A program made the position numbers and the translations under genes. From Nitrososphaerota archaeon (GTDB lineage Archaea; Thermoproteota; Nitrososphaeria; Nitrososphaerales; Gagatemarchaeaceae), in contig JACQFN010000016.1 in assembly GCA_016200045.1 (NCBI GenBank), forward strand, positions 124,001 through 188,000: DNA of 64,000 nucleotides, in the 5' to 3' direction. Under the pieces are notes generated by a model. That model did not search any database, had not been told where the DNA came from, and was given only the letters and a program-made list of their open reading frames with translations. Of the stretch, positions 9,573-49,606 are shown in pieces; position 1 is the stretch's first letter, and the number at the start of each line of letters is the position of its first letter.

Positions 9573-9898
9573 GGCGGTGGGTAGGGCCGGGAGGGTAGCC
9601 TTCTCCCAGAATGCTGAAACAGGCTTCATGCAGCGGCCAGCAACCTTCGGGTAAAGCCACCTTCCTCGCGACCCGCGCGGGACGGGGGAGACGAACTCAC
9701 GCCGGAGTGGGCGGTCATGAGGGGCGGTCCTCTCGAAGGAGAGGTCCTGACTCTTGATTGCCGAATCGGGCGAGGTCCGGGAGGGAGCAGCCCTATGGCG
9801 ACGTGGCCACGCTACTCCGTCTACGTGGGGGATTCCCCGCCCTGCGAGATGGGAACGGAGAGTGGTGGTGAACTCCGGGGGACCTGCCGCCACTTTCA
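9573..9898 (+). ncRNA. Signal recognition particle (7S) RNA
   Basis: A 326-nt non-coding stretch contains the SRP helix 8 signature, GGTCCGGGAGGGAGCAGCC (about 9773-9791), the SRP54-binding tip. The 5' GGCGG (9573-9577) can pair with CCGCC near 9887-9891, consistent with archaeal helix 1, which joins the RNA ends. The length agrees with archaeal 7S RNAs (about 300-320 nt). A TATA-like box lies upstream and a T-run directly downstream. The exact ends are inferred from the pairing and the T-run. The RNA scaffolds SRP54 and SRP19 for co-translational targeting. Confidence 0.85.
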
Positions 9899-42287: not shown

Positions 42288-42377
42288 TGGACCGGGGGGG
42301 ATTTGGACCCCCGACCTCCCCCATTCTGGGACTCAATCATGCCAAGGGGGTATCCTACCAGACTAGACTACCGGCCC
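42288..42377 (-). tRNA. tRNA-Ala(GGC) with a 16-nt canonical intron
   Basis: The acceptor GGGCCGG (42377-42371) pairs with CCGGTCC (one G-U), discriminator A at 42288. The D-arm is GTC/GAT. The anticodon stem CCCCC/GGGGG encloses TTGGCA-T, anticodon GGC. A 16-nt intron occupies 42324-42339 at the canonical 37/38 site. Its BHB is clear: exon TTGG pairs with intron CCAG, with 3-nt bulges CAT and AAT and a 2-bp inner helix. The T-loop is TCCAAAT, so the near-universal T at position 55 is C. Mature length 74 nt. Confidence 0.9.
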
Positions 42378-42945: not shown

Positions 42946-43893
42946 CTACCTTGCTCTACCAGCGAATCCTGCGATCAAGTTGACTACGCACGTCGCCGCG
43001 ACTATCTGCGATCGACCCGTCGGGTCCAAAGACGGGGCGAGCTCGACGACGTCGGCACACGCCGTCTTCTCCTTGCGCGCGAGGATTCGGACGAGCTCCA
43101 TCAAATCACCGGCCGCAATCCCTCCCACGCTCGGCGCGCTCACTCCAGAAACGGCCGAAATGTCGACTGCATCGAGGTCCACGCTCAGGTAGACCGCGTC
43201 TGCCCCTTTCTGGGCGGTCGCAAACGACTCCTCAGCGACTCTTGTCACCCCTTTTTTCCTTAGGCTATCGGCGGTCACCACGTCGACTCCGAGCTTCCTC
43301 GCCTTCTCAGCATAATCCGCGGAGTTCAGGAAGCCGTGGATTCCAATCTCCGAAACTCTCTCTGCGTCGAGTCCGGGGACTGATTCTATCGCAAGGCCAT
43401 ACGACGACCCACTGGTCGGCTTCCCTTCTATCTCCCCGCGCAGGTCGAGATGCGAGTCTACAGTGACGAGCCCAATCTCTCCGAGCCTGTTGGCGGTCGC
43501 CCTAAGCGCCGGAAGCGAAATGCTGTTGTCCCCTCCCAGGAGAACAAGCAGCGAGCCTTGAACGAGCGATTGCGCGACCTCGGGTTCGAGCGCCTGATGA
43601 AAACGCACGACATCGTCCGAGCCCGGGACCACGTCCCCCAAGTCCGTGACCTTCGTCCGAGCCAGGCCCATCCCGAGCTCCAAGCTGTAGTTCGAAAAGA
43701 AAGAAAGTGACTCTCTAATCGCCTTGGGACCTCCTGCCGCCCCTCTCCTGCCAAGGACCCCTCCGTCGAAGGGGACCCCGAGAATGTTGACCCCGTTGGG
43801 CCTGGGCCTTGTATCCTTGCCGATCATCTCGATCAGCCTGCGGTCGTTCGGATCTTTGTACCGCGGTGCAGGGTAGTGGGGAGGCCGCCTCAA
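42946..43893 (-). CDS. hutG: Ureohydrolase-family protein, probably formimidoylglutamase
   Basis: A 315-residue arginase-fold enzyme. In a hut cluster the likely reaction is hydrolysis of N-formimidoyl-glutamate to glutamate and formamide, the last pathway step. Metal motifs: DSHLDLR and SVDLDAVD are intact, with GVSAPSVGG following. The first motif is GGDNS instead of the usual GGDHS, so a manganese-binding His is replaced by Asn. Agmatinase-like activity is an alternative. It is divergent from hutH with a 76-bp gap holding TATA-like AATTAAAGATAT. Confidence 0.8.
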   Translation of the reverse strand: MRRPPHYPAPRYKDPNDRRLIEMIGKDTRPRPNGVNILGVPFDGGVLGRRGAAGGPKAIRESLSFFSNYSLELGMGLARTKVTDLGDVVPGSDDVVRFHQALEPEVAQSLVQGSLLVLLGGDNSISLPALRATANRLGEIGLVTVDSHLDLRGEIEGKPTSGSSYGLAIESVPGLDAERVSEIGIHGFLNSADYAEKARKLGVDVVTADSLRKKGVTRVAEESFATAQKGADAVYLSVDLDAVDISAVSGVSAPSVGGIAAGDLMELVRILARKEKTACADVVELAPSLDPTGRSQIVAATCVVNLIAGFAGRAR

Positions 43894-43969: not shown

Positions 43970-46603
43970 TTGACAGTGCTGCTTGACGGAAACTCGCTAA
44001 CCCTGAAGTCAGCTATGTCAGTCGTGCGCGGGGAAAAGGTCAGGATCTCGCCCGCGAGCATCAGACGAATGCAGAGGTTCCGGGACAAGCTCGAGGATAA
44101 GCTCGCAGTCGGGGAAGTCGTCTACGGCGTCAACACCGGGTTCGGGTCTCTCTCGGACAAGAGGGTCAGGCCCGGCGACATCAAGAAGCTGCAGCTCAAT
44201 CTGATCAGGAGCCATGCCGCGGGCCTCGGGAAGCACATGCCAGATGGCGTGGTGAGGGCTGCCATGCTCATCCGCTTGAACGGTCTGCTGAGGGGGAATA
44301 GCGCCACCAGACCCGAGATCGCAGAGCAACTGATGCAGATGATCAACAGAGGGGTGACCCCCCACGTCCCAGAATTCGGCTCGCTGGGAGCCTGCCTTCC
44401 GGGGGACTCCCTAGTTTACACAAATCCTTCCGGTCCCGTGCCCATTTCCGAAGTCAAGCCGGGAGACAAGGTGTACTCCTTCATTGGCGACCTCGAGAAG
44501 GTCAGAGTCCACGACCGAGACGGAGCCCCCAACAACTTCAGGTATCACTTCCGCAGCGACCTGAAGGTCTGTAGAATCCTGAATGTAATCGACTCAGGGT
44601 CCAAGCAGACATTCAGATTGCAGACCTATTCAAGGGAAATCGTATGCACCGACAACCACCCATTCCTGAAGCTCGTGATCGATCGAAGGGAAAGGGGCCA
44701 GAGGGCTGCCTACTCCCTGAAGTGGACCCCGCTTAAGGACTTGAAACCCGGGGACCTCATTCTTGCAGTCAAGAGCCTCCCCAAGGGCGGAACGAGCAGG
44801 CCCCTGGACCTTCCCTACCTTCAAGAGACCAATGCTGACTTCCTCAGACTGCTTGGCATGATTCTCGGGGATGGCTACGTGATGAGAAACATGAAAGCAA
44901 TCTCAATAGCACTTCCTCCTTGTGAAGAACGCGAAACCTACGTTGCACTGATAGCGCGACTCACTGGAAAAGAACCGTCACGTTACAACGATTCGATTGT
45001 AATTCATAGCAAGCTCCTAGGGAGCACGGTGACACGTCTGGGATTTGCTAGAAAAGCGCTCGAGAAACGGGTACCCGCCTGGGTCTACTCATTACCATTT
45101 GATCAACGAGTAGCGTTTCTTGAAGGGTACATCGACGCAGACGCAACTTCCCAGAACGTAATGAAGAGACACAAGGATGGTCATGTCTGGCACCAGGACA
45201 CGGTAACCTTCGAAATCCCGAACGGAAACCTAGTCAAGGATTTGCGTGTTCTGGCGATCTCTTGCGGGATGAGATGTGGGAAAGTACGGTCGAGGGACAA
45301 GGTGAGGGGTCTTTGGTTCAACGGACGGAAGACCTACGACTACAGGAAACCATCCAAATCATTCGCCTTCACCGTGATGAAACGCAACTTCTTCCCGTAT
45401 TCGTACAGCGGCAAGGTGAACATCGACACTTCGTCTGATAATTTCCACTTCGACAAGGTTGTTTCAATCAAACCCGACCGGATGCAGCAGGTATTCGACA
45501 TTCAGGTCGAAGGGAGCCACAACTTCGTCTCTGAAGGACTGCTCGTCCACAACAGCGGTGACCTCATTCCGTCCGCGCACATGGCCCTGGCGATGGTCGG
45601 TGAAGGCAGGGCCGAGTACAGGGGCGAGTGCATCGATGCGGGGAAGGCGCTGGCCCGGGCGGGGATGAAGCCCATCGAACTGCAGGCCAAGTCGGGTCTG
45701 TCACTAATCAACGGGACGAGCTTCACCAACGCGCTCGCCTGCACGGTGACCGAGCAGGGTGGCATCCTTCTTGAGGCAGGAAACTCCTCCGTTTCCCTGA
45801 CCAGCGAAGCCCTCGGCGCGTGCTCTCAGTCGTTCGACCCCCGCCTGGTCGGGATGAAGCGTGATTCTGGCCAGGCTCATGTCGCGAGGCGGATCCGTGC
45901 GCTCCTCAAGGGAAGCGGTAGGATAAGGGAGTTCCCCATTCCGCAGGACCCTTACTCCATCAGGTGTGCCCCGCAGGTCCACGGCGCCATGAAAGACTCG
46001 CTTGACTTCGCCCAGAGGCTCGTGGTAGAAGAGATGAACTCCGTATCCGACAACCCGATAATCATGGAAGACGGGACCCTGCTCCACGGGGGCAACTTCC
46101 ACGCCCAGCCGCTGGCCATGGCACTGGACCTGCTCTCGCTTTCGATTTCCTACTTGGGAGTGATCTCGCTCTCTAGGATTGGGGTACTTCTTTCCAAGTC
46201 TCCGCCTGCGCACATGTACATGGCGAGCAGGCCCGGGCTCGAGTCCGGCCTGATGATACTCCAGTATGCGGCGACCGCCCTAGCTGCCGAAAACTCCAAG
46301 CACATCTACCCGACGTCGGCATACCCGGCGAACGTTTCTGGAGGCATAGAGGACCACGCGAGTCACGGAGTCAACGCAGGGCTGAAGGCTGTCGCTGTCG
46401 CGCGTAATGTCTCGAAGATCCTCGCAATCGAGATGATATGCGCTTCCAACTTCCTCGGGAGCGACATCGCGGGGGTCTCTGACCACTCCTTGAAGGTGTG
46501 CGCCTCTTTGCGCAAGGTCTCCCCCCTCCTGAGCGGAGACCGCTCTATGTCGGATGAAATCGAAAGACTTGCTTCTGTCGTGATTTCAGGCGGCTTGTCC
46601 TAA
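43970..46603 (+). CDS. hutH: Histidine ammonia-lyase containing an intein
   Basis: The 877-codon precursor splits into extein residues 1-141 and 529-877 (490 residues after splicing, the normal HAL length) around a 387-residue intein. Histidine ammonia-lyase converts histidine to urocanate using the MIO cofactor formed from Ala-Ser-Gly. The N-extein ends FGSLGA (Ala141); the C-extein begins SGDLIPSAHMAL (Ser529-Gly530). Other HAL signatures are VYGVNTGFGSLSD and PQDPYSIRCAPQVHGA. TTG start at 43970. Without splicing the active site cannot form. The stop overlaps convergent hutI by 4 bp. Confidence 0.95.
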   Translation: MTVLLDGNSLTLKSAMSVVRGEKVRISPASIRRMQRFRDKLEDKLAVGEVVYGVNTGFGSLSDKRVRPGDIKKLQLNLIRSHAAGLGKHMPDGVVRAAMLIRLNGLLRGNSATRPEIAEQLMQMINRGVTPHVPEFGSLGACLPGDSLVYTNPSGPVPISEVKPGDKVYSFIGDLEKVRVHDRDGAPNNFRYHFRSDLKVCRILNVIDSGSKQTFRLQTYSREIVCTDNHPFLKLVIDRRERGQRAAYSLKWTPLKDLKPGDLILAVKSLPKGGTSRPLDLPYLQETNADFLRLLGMILGDGYVMRNMKAISIALPPCEERETYVALIARLTGKEPSRYNDSIVIHSKLLGSTVTRLGFARKALEKRVPAWVYSLPFDQRVAFLEGYIDADATSQNVMKRHKDGHVWHQDTVTFEIPNGNLVKDLRVLAISCGMRCGKVRSRDKVRGLWFNGRKTYDYRKPSKSFAFTVMKRNFFPYSYSGKVNIDTSSDNFHFDKVVSIKPDRMQQVFDIQVEGSHNFVSEGLLVHNSGDLIPSAHMALAMVGEGRAEYRGECIDAGKALARAGMKPIELQAKSGLSLINGTSFTNALACTVTEQGGILLEAGNSSVSLTSEALGACSQSFDPRLVGMKRDSGQAHVARRIRALLKGSGRIREFPIPQDPYSIRCAPQVHGAMKDSLDFAQRLVVEEMNSVSDNPIIMEDGTLLHGGNFHAQPLAMALDLLSLSISYLGVISLSRIGVLLSKSPPAHMYMASRPGLESGLMILQYAATALAAENSKHIYPTSAYPANVSGGIEDHASHGVNAGLKAVAVARNVSKILAIEMICASNFLGSDIAGVSDHSLKVCASLRKVSPLLSGDRSMSDEIERLASVVISGGLS
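44393..45553 (+). mobile_element. LAGLIDADG intein inserted in the HutH MIO triad
   Basis: 387 residues, Cys142 to Asn528. Splicing blocks: N-terminal CLPGDSLVYT (block A), CTDNHPF with Thr227 and His230 (block B), C-terminal VFDIQVEGSHNFVSEG and LLVHN (blocks F and G), followed by Ser529 as the +1 nucleophile. Homing endonuclease motifs: LLGMILGDGYV (residues 294-304) and FLEGYIDADAT (383-393), each retaining the acidic residue, so the endonuclease may be active. The endonuclease part (about 44880-45230) is visibly poorer in GC than the flanking hutH sequence, consistent with horizontal arrival. Confidence 0.95.
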
Positions 46604-47847
46604 GCGGCTGCTGCATCAAAGACCACCTTTCCGCATCTGACCACCTTCGAAACGTACCGCCCGCCCACTCTGTACGGCAGGAACCTGTAGCTTGGGACCG
46701 AATGCACCACGAAGTCCGCCCTCTTCCCCACCTCAAGACTTCCGATGTCCTTCCTCCCTATCGCCGCAGCAGCGTTCGAGGTGAAACCCATCACTGACTG
46801 CGCGGGCGAGAGCTTCAGAGCCGTGCACGCGACAGCCATCACGATCTGGGGGGACTCGACCCATGAGTTCGGGCTGAGGTCCGTCCCCAGGGCAACCCTG
46901 CAACCAGCCTTGACGAAGGCTTGGGCGTCGGCGTACTTGATCCCCGAATAGAGCGACGTCGTCGGGAGAAGGACCGGGACGACCCCTTCCCGAGCCATCT
47001 TCAGGACCCCCTCATGGTCCGCGTACCCAAGATGGTCGGCAGAAGTGCACCCGGCCTCGGCAGCCAGCGATGCGCCTTTGGTGTCGCTGAACTCGTCGGC
47101 GTGAATTTTTAGGGCAAAGCGGAGCCTCTTCGATGCTGACAGATAACGGGCGCATTCGTCTCTGGAGAAGACTCCCTCCTCGCAGAAGCAGTCCGAGAAC
47201 GCGGGGCGGTCCCTGAGGCCTGCGATGAACGGGAGCATTCTTTTGATGGCATAGTCCACATGGTCACCCGACGTCCTGAATTCGGGATGCTTCGCGTGCA
47301 ATCCGAGGAAAGTAGCAGTGAGGTCCGCGCCGGCTGACCTTCTCAGGGCAGCAATCGACTTCAGTAGCTTGATTTCTTCTTTGAGCCTCCCTCCGTATCC
47401 GGTCTTCACCTCGATCGTAGTCACACCGTTCGCCTGGAGCTGGTTGAGCCTCGACTTCGACTGTTCGACGATTTTCGAAACAGAAGACCGACCCGTCTCG
47501 CGAAAGGTCTTGAGGATGCCCCCGCCCGACTTCAATATGCTGGTGTAACTCTCGCCTCGACCCTTTCGTTCGAGCTCGTCTTCCCTGCTCCCTGAGAAAA
47601 CGAGATGAGTGTGGGGGTCGACGAACCCGGGCGTTACGACGCCTTGTCCCGCGTCCATGACCTTCCCTACCTTCCCGAAGCTTTTTCGCCTGAACTCGCC
47701 GGTGGTTCCCACCCAGGCGACGTCCCCGTTGATGGAAAGCAACGCCCCATCTTCTATGATTCCAAGCGACGAGACGTCGTCGTCTGTCGCATCTGCACCC
47801 GAACAGACGAGAAGCTCTCTGGCGTTGATCACCGCGACCGAGGCCAA
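46600..47847 (-). CDS. hutI: Imidazolonepropionase
   Basis: A 415-residue amidohydrolase opening the imidazolone ring to formimidoyl-glutamate, the third histidine-degradation step. Metal motif DPHTHLVFSGSREDE near residue 75, then GRGESYTSILKSGGGIL, KIHADEFSD (catalytic Glu/His area), SADHLGYADHEGV and GTDLSPNSWVES with the metal-binding Asp. TTG start at 47847. It is divergent from hutU with about 100 bp of shared promoter region. Confidence 0.95.
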   Translation of the reverse strand: MASVAVINARELLVCSGADATDDDVSSLGIIEDGALLSINGDVAWVGTTGEFRRKSFGKVGKVMDAGQGVVTPGFVDPHTHLVFSGSREDELERKGRGESYTSILKSGGGILKTFRETGRSSVSKIVEQSKSRLNQLQANGVTTIEVKTGYGGRLKEEIKLLKSIAALRRSAGADLTATFLGLHAKHPEFRTSGDHVDYAIKRMLPFIAGLRDRPAFSDCFCEEGVFSRDECARYLSASKRLRFALKIHADEFSDTKGASLAAEAGCTSADHLGYADHEGVLKMAREGVVPVLLPTTSLYSGIKYADAQAFVKAGCRVALGTDLSPNSWVESPQIVMAVACTALKLSPAQSVMGFTSNAAAAIGRKDIGSLEVGKRADFVVHSVPSYRFLPYRVGGRYVSKVVRCGKVVFDAAAA

Positions 47848-47927: not shown

Positions 47928-47950
47928 GTCAGACGAGGTTGAAGAGACCA

Positions 47951-49606
47951 ATGCAGAAGCACGTAATTCGCGCCCCGAGGGGACTCCAGCTCTCCTGCAA
48001 AGGATGGCATCAGGAAGCAGCCCTGCGGATGCTGATGAACAATCTCGACCCAGAGGTGGCGAAGGACCCCGAACACCTAATCGTCTATGGGGGGACGGGG
48101 AAGGCCGCGAGGAGCTGGCCGGCGTACGACGCTATAGTGAAGTCACTGAAGAGCCTCGAGAACGATGAGACCCTCCTCGTCCAATCGGGAAAGCCCGTAG
48201 GGATTTTCAAGACGTCTCTTGGTGCTCCAAGGGTCCTGATTTCGAACGCCATGCTGGTGCCGAAGTGGGCGGACTGGAGGTACTTCAGAGAGCTCGAAGA
48301 GAGGGGACTCACCATGTACGGCCAGATGACAGCGGGAAGCTGGATGTACATCGGGACGCAGGGAATACTCCAGGGGACTTACGAAACTCTCGCGGCGGCC
48401 GCCTCGAGGCACTTTCGAGGCTCCCTGAAGGGGAGGGTGGTCCTGACCTCTGGGCTCGGAGAGATGGGCGGTGCCCAGCCGCTCGCGGTGACCATGAACG
48501 AAGGGGTGGCCCTCGTCGTCGAAGCCGACAGGAAGGCCATCGAAAGGAGGCTCGCAAAGGGGTATTGCGACAAGCTGATTGAGGACACGAAAGACGCAGT
48601 CGAAGCTGCCCTTGCGGCCGCCAGAGCAGGTACGCCGCTTTCCATCGCCCTCCTCGGAAACTCGGCCGAAGTCCTGCCCCAGCTGTCCGAATCCGGCTTC
48701 AAGCCTGATGTCGTGACCGACCAGACGGCCGCGCACGACCCCTTGGCTGGATACATCCCCGAGGGCCTGAGCATCGAGGAGGCTGCTAGCCTGCGCGCCT
48801 CGAACCCCGACGAGTACATCCACAGGTCGACGGGATCCATTGCAAAGCACGTCCGAGCCATGCTGAAGTTCCAGGAACACGGGGCGGTGACCTTTGAATA
48901 CGGCAACAACATCAGGAAGGTAGCGAAGGACGCAGGTGTAGGAGACGCGTTCAAGATCCCAGGGTTCGTCCCGGAGTACATCCGGCCCCTGTTCTGCGAA
49001 GGCCGCGGCCCTTTCCGATGGGTCGCGCTTTCAGGCGACAAGGAGGACATCTACGCCACGGACGAGGTCGTCACAAGGGAGTTTTCAGAGAACAAGTCTC
49101 TGGTTAGATGGATAACAAAGGCACACAGCTTGGTGAGGTTTCAGGGGCTCCCAGCCAGGGTGTGCTGGCTCGGGTACGGGGAGCGGGCGAAGTTCGGAAA
49201 GATAATCAACGCCATGGTCCGCAAGGGGGAGATATCAGCTCCAATCGTCATCGGGAGGGACCATCTCGACTCCGGCTCGGTGGCCTCGCCCTTCAGGGAG
49301 ACGGAAGCGATGAAAGACGGATCGGACGCAATAGCAGACTGGCCGATCCTGAACGGGCTCCTGAACGCGGTCTCTGGCGCCTCCTGGGTCTCCGTTCATC
49401 ACGGAGGGGGCGTGGGGATCGGATATTCCATCCATGCCGGACTGGCCGTGCTCGCAGACGGCTCTCCAGAGGCTGACTCCAGGATTGCTATCTCGCTGAC
49501 GAACGACCCAGGCACAGGGGTCGCACGGCATGCCGACGCGGGGTACGAGGAAGCCGTGAAGACCGCTAGGACGAAGGGAGTCAAGATCCCGATGCTTTCG
49601 GACTGA
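47951..49606 (+). CDS. hutU: Urocanate hydratase
   Basis: A 551-residue NAD+-dependent urocanase making imidazolone propionate, the second step of the hut pathway. Features: [34 protein letters not shown] at the N-terminus (split here by family-typical residues), [28 protein letters not shown] and [15 protein letters not shown]; the catalytic Cys is expected in the [10 protein letters not shown] segment. I chose ATG 47951, which matches the family N-terminus and the TATA spacing. The 3' end overlaps convergent dedA by 26 bp. Confidence 0.95.

Follow-up and report, generated by a model that had tools for sequence, protein, structure and literature searches.

A class-1 intein divides the Ala-Ser-Gly cofactor triad of an archaeal histidine ammonia-lyase

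The stretch of DNA analyzed here (the window, 64,000 nucleotides) contains, according to the list of its open reading frames, a single uninterrupted frame at positions 43970 to 46603 (+) that encodes a histidine ammonia-lyase (HutH) precursor of 877 amino acids; the start codon is uncertain, being either TTG at 43970 or GTG at 43976. Within this one frame Pfam recognizes an aromatic amino-acid lyase (Lyase_aromatic, PF00221; 459 bits) at both ends of the encoded protein and, between them, an intein splicing domain (Intein_splicing, PF14890; above cut-off). The neighboring genes are hutG (42946 to 43893, −), encoding a formimidoylglutamase-like member of the arginase family that scores under the TIGR01227 cut-off; hutI, for imidazolonepropionase (46600 to 47847, −; above the TIGR01224 cut-off); and hutU, for urocanate hydratase (47939 to 49606, +; far above the TIGR01228 cut-off). 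The order hutG (−), hutH (+), hutI (−), hutU (+) comprises the entire route from histidine and is the same in an intein-bearing relative, G001, and an intein-free one, G003. The genome to which the window belongs (G000; 1.54 Mb in 25 contigs) is archaeal as judged by an archaeal L3 protein and by SRP RNA, the latter situated at 9575 to 9889 (+) of the window (archaeal SRP RNA, RF01857; 126.8 bits). A tRNA of 90 nucleotides at 42288 to 42377 (−), matched in Rfam with 51 bits and missed by ARAGORN, is probably an intron-containing archaeal tRNA.

The insertion in HutH comprises 387 residues (142 to 528 of the precursor; 44393 to 45553, +), running from Cys1 to His386-Asn387 in its own numbering, and separates an N-extein (residues 1 to 141, ending in FGSLGA; 43970 to 44392, +) from a C-extein (residues 529 to 877; 45554 to 46603, +). 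With a slash marking the splice point, the junctions read FGSLGA/CLPGDSLV upstream and SEGLLVHN/SGDLIP downstream. Ala141 (codon at 44390 to 44392, +), the last residue of the N-extein, is also the first residue of the Ala-Ser-Gly triad of the MIO cofactor, and Ser529-Gly530 (codons at 45554 to 45559, +) provide the +1 splicing nucleophile together with the second and third residues of the triad. Position 1 of the intein is Cys142 of the precursor, as class 1 requires. Comparison with other inteins places splicing block B (Thr86-x-x-His89; T86-D-N-H89) at 44648 to 44659 (+), the first LAGLIDADG motif (LLGMILGDG, intein residues 153 to 161, with Asp160) at 44849 to 44875 (+) and the second (FLEGYIDADA, residues 242 to 251, with Asp250) at 45116 to 45145 (+), where there is also a weak match to PF14528; blocks F and G (FDIQVEGSHNFVSEGLLVHN; 45494 to 45553, +), located by TIGR01443 as well as by comparison, contain Asp369 and His376 and end in His386-Asn387, immediately ahead of Ser529. 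The C-terminal intein model TIGR01443 scores 28.5 bits against a cut-off of 15.6 and the splicing domain PF14890, run on the intein alone, 47.9 bits against 35.8; the N-terminal model TIGR01445 falls just under its cut-off (21.8 against 24.5), and the endonuclease model LAGLIDADG_3 (PF14528) is subthreshold (14.5 against 22.5). Asp160 and Asp250 of the two DOD motifs are, however subthreshold that match, invariant in six related inteins, and a profile built from the HutH intein and its relatives matches solved endonuclease-bearing inteins (7qsu, 7qss, 7qst, 2cw7, and 1dq3) over both domains, the endonuclease of PI-PkoII (2cw7) included. On these features the insertion is a class-1 intein with a LAGLIDADG homing endonuclease, its splice blocks and both endonuclease motifs intact, for which self-excision is predicted. 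The position of the intein between Ala141 and Ser529-Gly530, as proposed in the initial annotation, was reproduced base for base, and every splicing residue and motif that it had described as intact could be located. The GC content of the intein is 52%, against 61% for the exteins, and an AlphaFold2 model of the intein alone had a pLDDT of 36.5, too low to be informative. Intein residues 296 to 312 (GKVRSRDKVRGLWFNGR; window 45278 to 45328) are fully identical in the inteins of G000 and G001, which are otherwise much diverged, and this segment may serve the endonuclease in DNA recognition or in folding.

The exteins, when joined, give a protein of 490 residues, the size anticipated for the spliced product, which aligns with solved histidine ammonia-lyases (HALs), the best being 7tqr, and which can be aligned without a gap through GSxGASGDL with the Pseudomonas putida enzyme (1gkm). 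Joining restores the Ala-Ser-Gly triad, and GSLGASGD is found in all 23 extein rows of the alignment; the downstream junction and the 1gkm alignment together confirm the earlier proposal that Ser529 is at once the +1 residue of splicing and the center of the triad. All of the catalytic residues of HAL, with roles taken from a study of the Geobacillus kaustophilus enzyme (PMC11432326), are kept: Tyr52, Ser81-His82, Asn194, Gln272, Tyr275, Arg278, Phe323, and Glu407 in mature numbering. The joined extein scores 460.6 bits with the hutH equivalog TIGR01225, which remains the best-scoring equivalog but has a cut-off of 539.15, and the name HutH therefore rests on these residues and on the neighbors hutG, hutI, and hutU. 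Judged by its sequence, then, the host is an ordinary HutH within a hut cluster, as first supposed, sharing with 1gkm and 7tqr the triad, the Ser-His motif, the catalytic residues and the hut neighborhood, and differing from them in being split by an intein. At position 406 of the mature protein (GGIEDHASH), just before the catalytic Glu, nearly all members of the archaeal HutH clade have Ile; the P. putida enzyme has Gln.

A search of archaeal HutH for insertions at the same site, as had been recommended, was rewarded among 31 genomes of the genus, 21 of which carry hutH. The site is solely empty in 18 of these 21, G000 and G001 have a complete intein, and a third genome, G026, contains both states. 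The precursor of G001 (L011) is 64% identical to that of the window over 877 residues and has its intein at the same base; the two inteins are of equal length, align without a gap and are 63% identical, as compared with 65% for the exteins. Having diverged about as much as the exteins, the intein is, on this comparison, not new to the genus. In G026, one contig (C14) ends in an empty site (GSLGA-SGD), and another (C38) starts with SHNFVSEGLVVHN-SGD, that is, with 13 intein residues followed by C-extein, so that the occupied allele of this genome is known from the last 39 nucleotides of its intein. The last 99 nucleotides of C14 equal nucleotides 49 to 147 of C38 with zero mismatches, and an exact overlap of this kind, its extent partly fixed by the contig break, is what a de Bruijn assembler is expected to leave where two alleles part. 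On C38 the intein tail and the species' own extein lie on one DNA molecule, with hutI and hutU as neighbors. The Ser-Gly-Asp codons are TCC GGG GAT in the empty allele and AGT GGC GAC in the occupied allele, differing at five of nine bases and giving way to identity beyond; this 9-nucleotide difference beside the junction suggests co-conversion, although the point at which identity ends is partly set by the assembler.

The three genes with an intein stand apart from one another on the extein tree, each beside an empty one (support values of 99/98, 97/99, and 86/81), and the tree calls for a minimum of three changes of intein state. Between G000 and G001 the intein has a dN of 0.30, its splicing and endonuclease regions being alike in this respect, with synonymous rates so saturated that no exact dN/dS ratio can be given; because dN is this low in both regions against a saturated dS, both functions of the intein look to have been maintained. 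The finding of the same precursor in the independent genome G001, and of part of it in G026, rules out the assembly artefact that might have undone the initial annotation, and the copy in G001 likewise rules out a chance reading of the precursor. Among 400 genomes of the class, 4 contain the junction pattern HN-SGDLxP, namely, the three occupied ones and a fourth with a single chance match in a haem-peroxidase-like gene, and we have rejected chance as the origin of the junction.

The element is of a familiar kind. It shares Cys1, TxxH, the block F Asp, His-Asn, and a +1 Ser with the class-1 DOD inteins of archaeal V-ATPase subunit A (7qss, 7qst, and 7qsu), PI-PkoII (2cw7), and PI-PfuI (1dq3), as well as a pair of DOD motifs spaced by about 90 residues and a sporadic pattern of empty and occupied sites; their hosts are ATPases or DNA enzymes, whereas here the host is a MIO enzyme of amino-acid breakdown. 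Its nearest relatives found, at no more than about 36% identity, are inteins of SufB, the Mrp/NBP35 ATPase, and the β subunit of POR in the same phylum, which have the same block order and HN/S or HN/T junctions but other insertion sites, and which are without a loop of about 20 residues near positions 37 to 58 of the HAL intein; in the intein tree the HAL inteins cluster separately with 100/100 support. On our reading of the motifs, inteins of this lineage sit at catalytic or cofactor residues in NuoB (MGA/C), POR β (CPG/CGD), and SufB and in the P-loops of MCM, RadA, CDC48, V-ATPase, and Mrp. The generalization that inteins usually occupy ATP-binding sites of replication proteins was only partly apt, since the lineage also harbors them in NuoB, POR β, SufB, and topoisomerase IB. 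In NuoB (L037 to L039) and at CPG/CGD of POR β (L005), the +1 residue is apparently a cofactor residue too, as in HutH, a role that we assign from conserved motifs; there it would bind a metal cluster, whereas the +1 Ser of HutH would become part of a covalent MIO with its neighbors through a second autocatalytic reaction of the backbone. The NuoB inteins, in genomes G032, G008, and G036, precede the Cys of MGA/C-x-ITGG, probably a metal-cluster ligand, and one of the three genes (L039) has two inteins, one of them without an endonuclease. Two inteins also share one frame in an Mrp/NBP35-type ATPase (L073, genome G143), and the topoisomerase IB genes of G027 and G026 (L034 and L045) have theirs at GRG/SHPLRG. 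The window's own genome is rich in inteins, carrying them, besides HutH, in MCM, a CDC48-type ATPase, POR β, V-ATPase subunit A, and RadA (L002, L004, L005, L007, and L009, on contigs C24, C22, C3, and C19).

The initial annotation knew of no described intein in a MIO enzyme, and this holds, provisionally, for what we searched. No report of one was found in open-access papers, and the NCBIfam search brought up no model of an intein-containing HAL, though the collection includes models of this type for GyrA, RtcB, and Tes. Elsewhere in a sample of the phylum there was no intein-bearing HAL, the precursor being matched in 58 of 398 genomes and the two halves of HAL, where both were found, adjoining. 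None occurred in 857 matching plasmid records, nowhere in which was 80% or more of the precursor covered; no close intein was found in phages and viral contigs; and the sole match in a scan of genome contigs was an intein-free bacterial HAL of 39% identity. The lineage repeatedly carries inteins at residues for catalysis or a cofactor (NuoB, POR β, SufB, and Mrp), and hence the kind is known; HutH is a new host and insertion site for it, a provisional statement in that "not described before" refers to these genome samples and to open-access papers.

We hold with considerable confidence that a mobile, selfish class-1 DOD homing intein lies between Ala141 and the Ser of the MIO triad in an otherwise normal HutH. 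The element, its exact site, its intact motifs, and the coexistence of empty and occupied alleles are read from sequence; from them we infer the steps of processing, splicing, MIO formation, and homing. Translation would yield an inactive precursor of 877 residues, in which Cys142 would attack the carbonyl of Ala141, Ser529 would take over the acyl group and Asn528 would cyclize; a shift from ester to amide between Ala and Ser would then produce HutH of 490 residues. Only thereafter could MIO arise, through attack of the Gly530 nitrogen on that very carbonyl of Ala141 and dehydration of Ser529. Since 387 residues part Ala from Ser-Gly beforehand, or Ser529 is still an ester, MIO should be impossible before splicing, and the claim that the cofactor can be gained only afterward follows from this geometry, "obligatory" being a well-founded inference. 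Baedeker and Schulz, as cited in PMC11432326, reportedly observed in 2002 that cyclization in HAL occurs during folding of the chain, and for this reason splicing probably runs before, or together with, the folding of the HutH core. The endonuclease would cut intein-free hutH at the nearly invariant GSLGA/SGD codons, repair would copy the intein in, and the element would be kept as a selfish one at a place where only its exact removal preserves the enzyme, with no regulation of histidine breakdown required. Homing theory predicts intein sites that cannot change and that tolerate exact loss alone (PMC2814812), and inteins at catalytic or cofactor residues, as in these archaea, are in keeping with it.

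That splicing acts as a switch for histidine breakdown, as the initial annotation had it, we consider improbable. Such a reading holds that conditional splicing, responsive for example to histidine, redox state, metal, or temperature, sets when HutH gains MIO, and it draws on the need of HutH activity for prior splicing, on the extra loop that the HAL inteins share in their N-terminal splicing domain and that is absent from the related inteins of SufB, Mrp, and POR, and on conditional splicing in other inteins, such as those of RadA in Pyrococcus horikoshii (PMC5790916) and of mycobacterial DnaB (PMC6195587 and PMC7360933). Yet most hutH-bearing congeners do without the intein, both alleles are present in the one population of G026, the endonuclease is retained, the other inteins of the lineage occupy equally critical residues of unrelated proteins, and no signal is indicated anywhere in the sequence; we found nothing that points to conditional splicing, and distribution, alleles, and endonuclease fit homing. 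Equally improbable in our estimation is a version in which the kinetics of splicing and of MIO formation are linked on the Ala141 carbonyl and the rate of splicing, governed by extein folding or a metabolite, times histidine breakdown; if it were true, the coupling would constitute a natural posttranslational switch on the birth of a cofactor.

The near-equal divergence of inteins and exteins between G000 and G001 counts against homing for these two genomes and would suit an old insertion, inherited vertically in the genus and since lost from most of its lineages, for which homing no longer matters. We regard this as unlikely, given that it demands many independent precise losses where imprecise loss kills the enzyme, that the alleles of G026 differ solely at codons beside the junction, and that the endonuclease motifs are still intact. 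Hardly credible is the proposal that the insertion inactivated hutH, with splicing dead and the locus decaying: the GC content of the intein is unlike that of the exteins, but neither full precursor (G000 or G001) has a stop or frameshift, both retain all of the splice residues and HAL catalytic residues, and dN is far under the saturated dS in intein and C-extein alike. Other points against the homing reading are that hutH is not obviously essential, and so an uncommon home for an intein, and that the extein does not reach the cut-off of the hutH equivalog. The best explanation is nevertheless a homing element whose target happens to be the MIO codons, the most conserved of HutH; the patchy distribution, the presence of both alleles in the G026 population, and the conservation of the endonuclease motifs favor it, and cutting of the empty site is predicted.

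This HutH would represent a natural system in which protein splicing is followed by MIO cyclization, each employing in turn one and the same serine and alanine carbonyl; the unusual point is that the +1 residue would take part in two successive autocatalytic reactions of the backbone. Because MIO forms during the folding of HAL, the intein makes it possible to ask cleanly whether the core of an enzyme folds only once splicing is complete, and mature MIO, followed by UV absorbance and urocanate production, is a potential built-in and traceless reporter of splicing. The host range of inteins is widened to a catabolic enzyme, an uncultured population is offered that has both the occupied and the empty allele, and the finding supports the view that homing inteins pick those codons of a genome that are least free to change.
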